A stretch of DNA of 64,000 nt, from positions 62,001 to 126,000 of the forward strand of contig JACRCV010000118.1 in assembly GCA_016218825.1 (NCBI GenBank), written 5' to 3'. Positions 15,851 through 64,000 of the stretch are shown here, piece by piece. The position numbers were made by a program, and so were the translations under genes. The notes below the pieces were generated by a model that ran no database searches, was not told where the DNA came from, and was given only the letters and a program-made list of their open reading frames with translations. Within the stretch, counting starts at the first letter, position 1. Every line of letters begins with the position of its first letter. The DNA comes from Deltaproteobacteria bacterium (lineage in GTDB: Bacteria; Myxococcota; XYA12-FULL-58-9).

Positions 15851-17029
15851 TTAGCGCCGCGGATCGGCGTTGCCGCCCACGACCTTGAGGTTGCCGGTCG
15901 GCACCACGGTGACCCGCGCGACTTGCAGCGGCACCACCTCGGTCACGTGAAGGCCGAAGCCTTCGATCCCCTTGAGCCGTTTCGGGTTGTTGGACAACAG
16001 ACGAATGTGGGTCAGCCCGAGCTCGCGCAGGATCTGGGAGCCGAGGCCGATGTCGCGCAGGGCGCTCTGCGGCGGGTTGGCGGTGGTCTCGACGCGCTCG
16101 CCGACCTCGTTGATGCGGCGATCGAGGGGCACCTCGTCGACGGCGCGATCGATGCAGAGCAACACGCCGCAGCCCTCGTCACAGATCCGCGCCATCGCCG
16201 CGCCGAGCAGCTGGCGGTCGTTGCTGAACAGATCGCCGAAGACGCTGCTCAAGCTGTAGCCGGCGTGCACCCGGACCACCGGCGCCGGCACCGCAGAGAG
16301 GTCGCCCTTCACCACCACCAGGTGCTGGCGCAGGTCGATGGTCGAGCTGTAGGCGCAGAGCGTGACCGTGCCCCACTGCGGGTGCGTGACCTCGCGCGAC
16401 ACCAGGCGGCGCACCAGGGTCTCCATCCGCAGGCGGTACTCGATGAGGTCGGCGATGCTGACGATCAACAGCTGGTGCTCGCGGGCGAAGCGCTCGAGGT
16501 CGGGCAGGCGCGCCATCGAGCCGTCGTCGGTCATGATCTCGCAGATCACCCCGGCCGGCTCGAGCCCGGCGAGGCGCGCCAGATCCACCGCGCCCTCGGT
16601 CTGACCGGTGCGCACCAACACCCCGCCGGGTTGCGCCCTGAGCGGGAACACGTGGCCGGGGCGGACGAGGTCGGCGGCGGCGGCGTGCGGCGCCACCGCG
16701 GCGCGAATCGTCGTCGCCCGATCCGCGGCGCTGATGCCGGTCGACACCCCGTGGCGCGCCTCGATCGACACCGTAAACGCGGTGCCGAAGGTGCTGGTGT
16801 TGTTGGCCACCATCAGCGGCAGATCGAGCTGGGCGATGCGGCGGTCGGTGAGCGCCAGACACACGAGGCCGCGGCCGTACTTCGCCATGAAGTTCACAGC
16901 CTCGGGCGTCACCTTCTCGGCCGCCAGGCACAGGTCGCCTTCGTTCTCGCGGTCTTCGTCGTCGACGAGGATCACCATCCGCCCAGCGCGGATCTCGTCG
17001 ATCGCATGCTGGACGGTCTCCAAGGTCAT
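15851..17029 (-). CDS. ribBX: DHBP synthase fused to a degenerate GTP cyclohydrolase II domain (RibBX-like)
   Basis: This 392-residue protein has two parts. Residues 1-205 are an intact 3,4-dihydroxy-2-butanone 4-phosphate synthase (RibB): [10 protein letters not shown] with the acidic metal ligands, and the [16 protein letters not shown] and [10 protein letters not shown] motifs. Residues 206-392 correspond to RibA but lack its key features. The zinc-binding CxxxD...RCDCG segment is replaced by [20 protein letters not shown], and the RQEGRGIGL catalytic stretch reads [14 protein letters not shown]. Only the distal [17 protein letters not shown] phosphate-binding part is kept. This matches the RibBX variant described in proteobacteria, which has only RibB activity. 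It overlaps ribE by 4 bp. A complete ribA lies at 61935-62780. Confidence 0.9.
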
Positions 17030-61934: not shown

Positions 61935-62780
61935 CTACCTCCTGGTGGCCGACTTGCGACCGCGCGCCGCGCCGCTGAGCGCCGCAACCGCGATCAAGTG
62001 ACCGTGCCGACGTTTGGCCTTCAGGTAGCGAGCATTGTGGCGGCTCACCCCGACCACGAGCGGCACCTGCTTCGCGACCTCGACGCCCATCTCTTCCAGC
62101 GCCCGGCGCTTCAGCGGGTTGTTGCCGAGCAACCGGACCGAAGCGCCGGAGCCGCGAAAGTAGTTGATGAGCCGCGCCGCATCGGAGAAGTCGCGCGAGT
62201 CGACCGGCAATCCGAGGCGGACGTTGGCCTCGTAGGTGTCGTGGCCGGCGTCCTGCAGCAGGTAGGTGATCGCCTTGGCCCACAGCCCGATGCCACGGCC
62301 CTCGTGCCCCGCCATGTAGATCAGCGCCCCGCGCCGCGCCTTGACGATCGCCTCGAGCGCGGCGGCGAGCTGCGGTCCGCAGTCGCAGCGCAGCGAGCCG
62401 AAGACGTCGCCGGTCAGGCAGTTCGAGTGCACCCGCACCAGCGGCGCCGCAGCGGCGGCGAAGTCGCCGTAGACCAAGATCGAGCTCACCGCCATGAACT
62501 CGGAGAGCAGGCTGTAGATGCCGCGCGGGCCGCTCTGCCGCACCTCGGCGACCACGGCCTCGATGCGCGTCAGATCGGCGTTGCGCACCCACGCGTACCA
62601 CTGGAAGGTCCGCTCCTTCGCGCCGACGCGGATCGGCAGCGGGATCGGCCCGACGACGCTCAAGAACGGCGCCGCACCTTTCTTGACCGCGGCGAGCGCC
62701 CGACCCTGCTCGTCGAGGAAGAAGAGCTTGCCGTCCTCTTGCAGCTCGCGCTTGATGCTCGGATCAATGTAGGCAAACAT
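61935..62780 (-). CDS. ribA: GTP cyclohydrolase II (complete, stand-alone)
   Basis: This 281-residue protein opens the first step of riboflavin synthesis by converting GTP to diaminopyrimidine phosphate, formate and pyrophosphate. About 80 N-terminal residues of unknown role precede the GCH2 domain. The domain has the zinc site VRVHSNCLTGDVFGSLRCDC, the catalytic AGHEGRGIGLWAK, YEANVRLGLPVDSRDF and LLGNNPLKRRAL. All residues missing from the ribBX fusion at 15851-17029 are present here. Its promoter is at 62827-62855. A GAGG lies 11 nt upstream of ATG 62780. Confidence 0.95.
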   Translation of the reverse strand: MFAYIDPSIKRELQEDGKLFFLDEQGRALAAVKKGAAPFLSVVGPIPLPIRVGAKERTFQWYAWVRNADLTRIEAVVAEVRQSGPRGIYSLLSEFMAVSSILVYGDFAAAAAPLVRVHSNCLTGDVFGSLRCDCGPQLAAALEAIVKARRGALIYMAGHEGRGIGLWAKAITYLLQDAGHDTYEANVRLGLPVDSRDFSDAARLINYFRGSGASVRLLGNNPLKRRALEEMGVEVAKQVPLVVGVSRHNARYLKAKRRHGHLIAVAALSGAARGRKSATRR

Positions 62781-62826
62781 CGGGACTGCGACCTCACAGC
62801 GGCGGTCGGGCCGTCGCGGCGCGCGG

Positions 62827-62855
62827 AGTCTAGGGCGACCCCGGCTGCTCGGCAA
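62827..62855 (-). promoter_or_regulatory. Promoter of ribA
   Basis: On the minus strand TTGCCG (62855-62850), a 17-bp spacer and TAGACT (62832-62827) lie about 46 nt before ATG 62780. It is among the best consensus matches in the window. Confidence 0.5.
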
Positions 62856-62938
62856 GCCGCTCGACAAACAAAGGTTGCGTTGCCTCCGACATCGGGCAAC
62901 GATGGCGACCGCAACCGCGTTCGGCAAGGAGCAACGCC

Positions 62939-63568
62939 GTGACCAAAGCCCCCCGGCGACGTCGATCCGAATCGGCGTCGCGGCGACAGCAGCAGGCGAC
63001 GCGCGCGATCCGCGCCCTCCTCCAAGGTCTGGGCGTCAGCCTCGCCGGCGAGCTCAAAGGCACGCCGGCCCGCGCCGCTTCCCTCTGGGTCGAGCACCTG
63101 CTCGCCGGTGAGGGGCTCGACCCGAAGGAGGTCCTCGGCCGCGGCAGCAAGACGCGCTCCCGATCCCCGGTGTCGCTGTTCGACGTCGGCGTCCACCTGG
63201 TCTGCCCGCACCATCTGACGGTGGCCTTCGGCGAGGCCCACGTCGCCTATCTGCCGCGGACCCGCGTCGCCGGCTTCGGTGCGCTCGCCCGCCTGGTCCG
63301 CGCCTGCACCGCGCGCCTGGCGCTGCAGGAGGACGCCACCCAGCTGATCGCCGACACCCTCGTCCTGCACCTCGGCGCCGTCGCGGCGGTCGTCGTCATC
63401 GACGCGCTGCATCCGTGTCACAACGTGCCGCACGCCCGCTCGCACCGCGCCCGCGCGGTCACCTGGGGCATCGCCGGCGACAAGGCCGCGGCCGACTCCC
63501 TCGCCCGCCTGCTCGCCGGACCCGAGCCCGGCGCCAAGGACGACTGCGGCTGCGACGGCTGTGCCTGA
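62939..63568 (+). CDS. Divergent FolE-like (GTP cyclohydrolase I fold) protein
   Basis: This 209-residue protein shows the T-fold of GTP cyclohydrolase I: TPARAASLWVEHLLAGEGLDP, VCPHHLTVAFGEAHVAYLP, ARLALQEDATQLIADTL and VIDALHPCHNV. The zinc ligands of FolE (the Cys and second His of CxHH, and the Cys of HxC) are kept. Several catalytic and GTP-binding features are not: CEHH is CPHH, GLSK is GFGA, and the ARG motif after HxC is absent. The reaction is therefore likely different from FolE. The C terminus is Cys-rich (DDCGCDGCA). It starts at GTG 62939 with AAGGAG 7 nt upstream, is divergent from ribA and precedes a RibD-type reductase by 1 nt. Confidence 0.78.
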   Translation: MTKAPRRRRSESASRRQQQATRAIRALLQGLGVSLAGELKGTPARAASLWVEHLLAGEGLDPKEVLGRGSKTRSRSPVSLFDVGVHLVCPHHLTVAFGEAHVAYLPRTRVAGFGALARLVRACTARLALQEDATQLIADTLVLHLGAVAAVVVIDALHPCHNVPHARSHRARAVTWGIAGDKAAADSLARLLAGPEPGAKDDCGCDGCA

Positions 63569-63569
63569 G

Positions 63570-64000
63570 ATGCCGCGCCCCGTCGTCAGACTGAACATGG
63601 CGATGACCGTCGACGGCAAGACGGCCTCGGCGGCGCGCGAGGCCGGCCGCTTCACCTCCGCCGCGGACCTCGCGCGGATGCAGGAGCTGCGCGCCGACGC
63701 CGACGCGGTGCTGGTGGGCGCCGAGACCGTGCGCCGCATCGATCCCCCGCTCTCGGTGGTTGACCCGGCGCTGCGGCAGCGGCGCCGTGACCGCGGCAAG
63801 AGCGAGCACCCGATGCAGTTGGTCTTGAGCGCGAGCGGCGACCTGCCGCCCACCTGCCGGGCGCTCTCCGAGCCCGCGGCCGCACCCCGGGTGCTCGTCA
63901 CCGGCGCCGACCCGCTGCGCCTCTTGCAGCCGCTCGCAAACGGCGTCGAGCACTGGCGACTCGGCAAGGGGACGGTCGATCTCCAAGAGCTCATGGGCCG
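63570..64000 (+). CDS. RibD C-terminal-type reductase, 3' end outside window (partial)
   Basis: The 143 visible residues match the DHFR-like RibD_C domain that reduces the ribosylaminopyrimidine in riboflavin synthesis: RLNMAMTVDGKTASA at the N terminus, then LRADADAVLVGAETVRR and PPLSV. There is no deaminase domain before it. It starts at ATG 63570, 1 nt after the FolE-like stop, so they form one operon. It could be a bona fide riboflavin reductase or a pterin/dihydrofolate-type reductase serving the FolE-like product; the available sequence does not decide this. Confidence 0.85.
   Translation, partial: MPRPVVRLNMAMTVDGKTASAAREAGRFTSAADLARMQELRADADAVLVGAETVRRIDPPLSVVDPALRQRRRDRGKSEHPMQLVLSASGDLPPTCRALSEPAAAPRVLVTGADPLRLLQPLANGVEHWRLGKGTVDLQELMG

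Follow-up and report, generated by a model that had tools for sequence, protein, structure and literature searches.

The folE-like gene of the 64,000-nucleotide stretch of DNA analysed here (the window; Table 1) probably encodes the GTP cyclohydrolase I that its genome uses, diverged in sequence yet still functional, and its residues place it in a CPHH/GFG subfamily of FolE that spans the Myxococcota. GTP cyclohydrolase I catalyses the first step of folate and queuosine synthesis from GTP. The same odd version of the enzyme is found in nearly all FolE-carrying Myxococcota, usually as the sole copy, which argues for a normal job carried out with a rebuilt active site. The evidence gathered for the query consists of homology, a fold prediction, the residue pattern, the sole copy, the presence of the downstream genes, the clade and the synteny, and it is from these that we infer the activity, substrate and product of the protein, the roles of its individual residues and those of both neighbouring reductases.

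Table 1. Features of the folE-like locus; positions are those of the window unless a locus name is given.
Feature	Position	Strand	Evidence or remark
folE-like gene, predicted CPHH-type GTP cyclohydrolase I	62939..63568	+	PF01227; AF2 model; 209 aa, GTG start at 62939, stop codon at 63566-63568
C89-P90-H91-H92 (E. coli C110-E111-H112-H113): Glu to Pro, rest kept	63203..63214	+	alignment
G112-F113-G114-A115 (E. coli G133-L134-S135-K136): triphosphate-site Ser and Lys gone	63272..63283	+	alignment
Q130-E131 (E. coli Q151-E152): guanine recognition intact	63326..63331	+	alignment; human E183 role, PMC7750480
H158-P-C160-H161-N-V-P-H165-A-R167-S-H169 loop	63410..63445	+	alignment
Stand-alone RibD_C (DHFR-like) reductase, operon gene 2	63570..64000 (window end; to 64274)	+	PF01872
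SDR, operon gene 3	L034:10277-11074		beyond window
GTP cyclohydrolase II (ribA) paralogue, divergent	61935..62780	-	PF00925; alignment
AAGGAG Shine-Dalgarno-like sequence	62926..62931	+	7 nt ahead of folE-like GTG
Divergent intergenic region, 158 bp	62781..62938	.	without Rfam match

The Pfam domain GTP_cyclohydroI (PF01227) covers residues 22-182 of the 209-residue protein (E=5.2e-31; 107.9 bits, cut-off 27), and no other Pfam family was matched at E<=0.1, QueF and QueF-like families included; PF00925 (RibA) was matched by the neighbouring gene alone. The NCBIfam cut-offs for FolE were missed (112.5 vs 162 for NF006826 and 76.5 vs 181.6 for TIGR00063), and that of NF006826 was passed by some CPHH relatives, e.g., those of G049 and G016. 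A phmmer search against the PDB returned exclusively GTP cyclohydrolase I chains. The AlphaFold2 model, built with 34 aligned proteins, had a pLDDT of 92.6 and a pTM of 0.86, and when it was compared with the PDB by Foldseek the top matches were all GTP cyclohydrolase I (best E 1.6e-17), with TM scores by query length of mostly 0.7-0.8. Thus, the predicted structure has the FolE fold; confidence is lower in some parts of the model, the loop past Cys160 included (pLDDT 77). Riboswitch control of the gene was rejected, as Rfam gave no match in the upstream intergenic region, including the THF, FMN and preQ1 riboswitches.

Residues are numbered here by E. coli FolE, checked against NC_000913.3 and counted without the initiator Met. 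In this enzyme we take C110, H113 and C181 to be the zinc ligands, H112 and H179 to be catalytic, and S135, K136 and R185, together with R65 and R139, to form the triphosphate cradle. By alignment, the query resembles FolE (GCYH-IA, PF01227, EC 3.5.4.16) in its predicted fold, in the three zinc ligands C110, H113 and C181, and in H112, H179, Q151-E152, R65 and R139, and differs from it by E111P, L134F, S135G, K136A and the loss of R185, the position of which is taken by Pro; of the cradle, only R65 and R139 are retained. Within the loop, H158 corresponds to E. coli His179 and C160 to the zinc ligand Cys181, the ARG motif that contains R185 is gone, and the segment past Cys181 is rebuilt with three histidines and one arginine. 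The alignment therefore bears out what the first-pass annotation had read from the letters, namely C-P-H-H for C-E-H-H, GFGA for GLSK and no ARG past the HPC cysteine, with every zinc ligand remaining. In human GCH1, R216 contacts the beta and gamma phosphates and E183 serves in guanine recognition (PMC7750480); by a 31-residue offset, R216 would be the equivalent of E. coli R185, and E183 that of E152.

We compared these positions between 30 Myxococcota CPHH proteins and 17 FolEs from outside the clade, drawn from other bacteria, phages, one halovirus and two Myxococcota. S135, K136, R139, H179, R185 and R65 were each found in 17/17 of the outside proteins, and E111 in 16/17, the halovirus having Ala. 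Among the CPHH proteins, C110, H112, H113, E152 and C181 were invariant (30/30), with Q151 in 29/30 and R65 in 27/30. Pro stood at E111 in all 30 and Gly at S135 in 25/30, K136 was Lys in just one, R139 and R185 varied, and H179 was replaced by Gln in 17/30, the query retaining His. His161, His165, Arg167 and His169, and Trp176 further on, have been gained in the query's order (7/8 or 8/8 proteins). Judged from these sequences, base recognition and the metal site are retained in the CPHH clade and the triphosphate cradle appears eroded or rebuilt. Three small-genome Myxococcota of family f20 (L052, L063 and L064, in G032, G046 and G035) have a FolE with CEHA or CEHT, in which the zinc ligand His113 is gone, GAG is found and the loop past the zinc Cys is shortened; folK is nonetheless present. 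On sequence, the f20 proteins look to depart from FolE even more strongly than the query does.

The changes in the query are common to a clade and not private to one gene. In our sample of 58 Myxococcota genomes, of which the query's (G000) is 6.54 Mb in size and 96.5% complete, PF01227 was present in 40/58 and the CPHH type in 36/58. Canonical CEHH copies were found in G052 and G020 and CEHA/CEHT copies in the three f20 members, and every other PF01227 protein examined in the 58 genomes was C-P-H-H, mostly with GFG. When the seven diagnostic columns were removed before maximum-likelihood analysis, the 30 CPHH proteins were still split off by one branch (support 100/99), with the query's order as a subclade of them (98/96 and 99/94 in two trees). 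The phylogenetic check that had been proposed for the gene thus assigns it to a separate clade of PF01227, apart from the sampled CEHH FolEs, so that the refuting outcome named with it, a position inside ordinary FolE, was not obtained. A scan of genome contigs with the query as a single protein returned its two nearest relatives and nothing else. The presence of CPHH FolE on plasmids was rejected, plasmid matches being <60% identical and the fetched ones CEHH, and an open-access literature search found nothing relevant on CPHH or myxobacterial FolE.

A CPHH folE was found in 8/8 genomes of the query's order, and CPHH is the sole GCYH-I in 31/53 folK+ genomes. It is the sole GCYH-I beside folK in G001, G002, G003, G005 and G007 of the order, and in G004 and G006 it is present with folK absent. 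FolE2 (GCYH-IB), for which the query has no PF02649 match in Pfam, would share the proposed function of the query, and its distribution within the Myxococcota is nearly exclusive of that of CPHH: it was found in 12/58 genomes and together with CPHH in 2 only (Fisher one-sided p=5e-4 over the 58 genomes, relatedness ignored). Such a distribution is what one expects when a single enzyme fills a pathway step, and FolE and FolE2 provide the precedent (PMC1971073). G004 (L115, L116 and L117) has FolE2 and a CPHH FolE without folK, its PTPS matches are weak with no clear QueD, and it misfits a simple folate/queuosine explanation. Six genomes (G011, G013, G017, G019, G033 and G038) are folK+ yet have neither PF01227 nor FolE2; gaps in the assemblies, salvage of pterins or a GTP cyclohydrolase I of an unknown kind could explain this, and the phylum may therefore hold an unknown GCYH-I.

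For the query's own genome, the first-pass annotation had suggested a new reaction on GTP or on a riboflavin or pterin intermediate, and a search for a canonical folE as a check. We found neither another PF01227 protein nor a FolE2 in this 96.5%-complete genome, so that a canonical folE or folE2 elsewhere in it was rejected, and this outcome counts against the new reaction. The genome encodes folB (C25:12107-12433) and queD (C25:12457-12801; NCBIfam QueD 100.8 vs 89.25), with a gap of ~24 nt between the domain hits, and also folK (C70) and folP (C35). The usual substrate of QueD is dihydroneopterin triphosphate. Since folB, queD, folK and folP are accompanied by a sole FolE candidate, something must make dihydroneopterin triphosphate, and the proposal of a new reaction found no support.

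Further evidence against it comes from related CPHH enzymes encoded directly downstream of queD. This arrangement, with both genes on the same strand, was found in 8 genomes, with 26-172 nt between the domain hits. All 8 of the adjoining queD genes carry the PTPS-I motif CxxxHGH, the three operonic QueDs tested passed the NCBIfam QueD cut-off, and an SDR gene lies downstream in 4 of the 8 loci (L046, L057, L058 and L060, in G020, G037, G042 and G051). G020 also holds a separate canonical folB-folE-folK operon (L045), which suggests two pterin routes in one cell.

Nor does the C-P-H-H motif argue for a new reaction. Scanning viral contigs turned up a CPHH FolE in 20 of phage origin (L134-L153, IMG/VR), some with queC-queD-queE-folE preQ0 operons; the gene order is queC-queD-queE-folE in L164, and in L156 queC and queE lie upstream of folE. 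These phage proteins share C-P-H-H with the query and are placed close to the myxococcal clade by the phylogeny, and one common phage and myxococcal CPHH group is not rejected by the AU test (p=0.077). Unlike the myxococcal clade, they retain the other residues almost throughout: among 13 distinct phage CPHH FolEs, S135, K136 and H179 were found in 13/13, and R139 and R185 in 12/13. Because they are otherwise canonical and some stand in preQ0 operons, Glu111 to Pro alone marks no new function; the change is compatible with a preQ0-pathway FolE.

On the sole-copy and synteny evidence, the reaction of the query is most likely predicted to be that of GTP to dihydroneopterin triphosphate. Zinc held by Cys89, His92 and Cys160 would activate water and open the guanine imidazole ring of GTP at C8, with His91 and His158 acting as acid/base and the guanine held by Gln130-Glu131; after the loss of formate, an Amadori rearrangement and ring closure would give 7,8-dihydroneopterin triphosphate. 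The triphosphate would be held differently, Ser135, Lys136 and Arg185 being gone and the R65 and R139 equivalents remaining, and the role of the lost residues may have passed to Arg167 and to the histidines that are specific to the order in the rebuilt loop. The product would feed QueD for queuosine and FolB, FolK and FolP for folate, and the co-operonic RibD_C reductase and SDR may be pterin/dihydrofolate reductases.

The same residues can be read further. There is a small chance that the CPHH/GFG clade represents, in functional terms, a third type of GTP cyclohydrolase I, one that would bind or process its nucleotide differently, without the canonical triphosphate cradle and perhaps on GDP, GMP or guanosine. 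In the query's order, the loop of H161, H165, R167 and H169 would then bind phosphate or a second metal, and the naturally occurring H179Q proteins of the clade would either finish the reaction through another acid/base or release a formamidopyrimidine. We also consider it rather unlikely that specificity is altered such that the ring is opened on GDP, GMP or guanosine, or that the reaction stops at the formamidopyrimidine intermediate. In favour of this, the residues for guanine and zinc persist where S135, K136 and R185 do not, and R139 too is lost in relatives; the loop of His161, His165, Arg167 and His169 that replaces the ARG loop is specific to the order; the human equivalent of R185 is the one in contact with the beta and gamma phosphates (PMC7750480); and some archaeal PTPS-III enzymes may use a monophosphate (PMC5041015). 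The Gln179 members are likelier candidates for a stop at formamidopyrimidine than the query is. E. coli His179 mutants form formamidopyrimidine triphosphate according to the title of a work cited in PMC7750480. Against altered specificity, the query retains H179, R65 and R139, and its rebuilt loop still has basic residues. The adjoining or co-occurring QueDs, moreover, score over the NCBIfam cut-off, and their usual substrate points to dihydroneopterin triphosphate as the product.

The gene orders raise the question of purpose. In a pterin-cofactor route, leading by way of PTPS and SDR to a tetrahydrobiopterin- or monapterin-like compound, the reaction would be the same, with RibD_C and SDR as pterin reductases. 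The order QueD/PTPS-FolE-SDR in the four genomes named above would fit this, as would FolE-RibD_C-SDR in G000 and G001 and the separation of the canonical operon of G020 from its CPHH operon. We regard such a dedicated route as improbable: the operonic PTPS has CxxxHGH of PTPS-I and not the PTPS-II motif CxxxxxHGH of biopterin synthesis, and CPHH is the sole GCYH-I in most genomes, where it must therefore serve folate and queuosine too. A FolE-like pseudoenzyme, dead in catalysis or with a regulatory role, as the loss of residues otherwise invariant in FolE might imply, is very improbable given zinc ligands and a catalytic His112 that are invariant across 30 diverse proteins and a single copy kept in 8/8 genomes of the order.

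The functional GTP cyclohydrolase I that we favour would share its operon with two reductases. The RibD_C ATG lies at 63570, 1 nt after the folE-like stop, and the full-length protein matches TIGR00227 (E=1.6e-39); the SDR reaches none of the NCBIfam cut-offs shown. The order folE - RibD_C - SDR occurs in G000 and G001, folE - RibD_C occurs in G006, and RibD_C adjoins folB in G005 and G016; besides the window and L034, the loci concerned are L113, L114, L040 and L035. In a tree, the stand-alone RibD_C proteins fall outside the bifunctional RibD clade (support 100/100). DHFR (PF00186) is absent from G000, G001, G005, G006 and G016, and is absent from 38/58 genomes, so that co-occurrence of RibD_C with the absence of DHFR is weak evidence when taken alone. 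The SDR FolM acts as a dihydrofolate reductase, and proteins of the PF01872 family are similar to DHFR (PMC1971073); M. tuberculosis Rv2671 is a functional analogue of DHFR according to a title cited in PMC10530724. The present case shares with Rv2671 and FolM that RibD_C and SDR reductases adjoin a pterin gene where the genome lacks DHFR, and differs in that the SDR lies below the cut-offs shown. Because the genome lacks DHFR, we propose both by analogy as candidate dihydrofolate/pterin reductases.

The other neighbour is one of three PF00925 genes in G000 and a paralogue, not the main ribA; a second GTP cyclohydrolase II paralogue lies on the same contig, at 15929-16381 of the window, and elsewhere the genome encodes a complete RibD (C28) and a further RibA with a higher score (C92). 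The neighbouring protein is extended at its N-terminus, carries YMAGHEGR, which includes one inserted residue, and has HSNC and GNNP for HSEC and TNNP. Being on the minus strand, its gene is divergent and probably outside the folE operon. In the other members of the order, no such paralogue was seen next to folE (the contig of G001 stops too early to show it). A conserved ribA-folE pairing shared with family f7 was rejected, as the RibAs beside the f7 CPHH folE are without the YMAGHEGR and GNNP variants and the pairing therefore looks independent. The earlier description of the gene as lying between ribA and a RibD-type reductase thus holds for the reductase and needs correcting for ribA, that gene being a divergent paralogue that probably lies outside the folE operon; the broader description of a FolE-fold protein with altered GTP-site residues in a pterin/flavin-type neighbourhood was borne out. 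That the query acts on the RibA product in riboflavin metabolism, as the adjoining GCH II paralogue and RibD_C reductase and the order ribA - folE-like - ribD_C might imply, was rejected as highly improbable on account of the divergent position of this order-atypical paralogue, the variants missing from f7, the separate RibD and RibA of the genome, and the stand-alone RibD_C proteins, which group apart from the RibD clade and adjoin folE or folB in five genomes that lack DHFR.

It appears that folate and queuosine synthesis in most of a bacterial phylum depends on a CPHH FolE lacking residues that each of the 17 other sampled FolEs retains, and more than half of the clade members compared (17/30) even have Gln for His179. 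The subfamily bears on the question of which residues of the active site are indispensable to GTP cyclohydrolase I, and residue-based annotation would wrongly label such genomes folE-negative or the gene non-functional. The stand-alone RibD_C reductase and the SDR are candidates for the dihydrofolate reductase that is missing from many bacteria.
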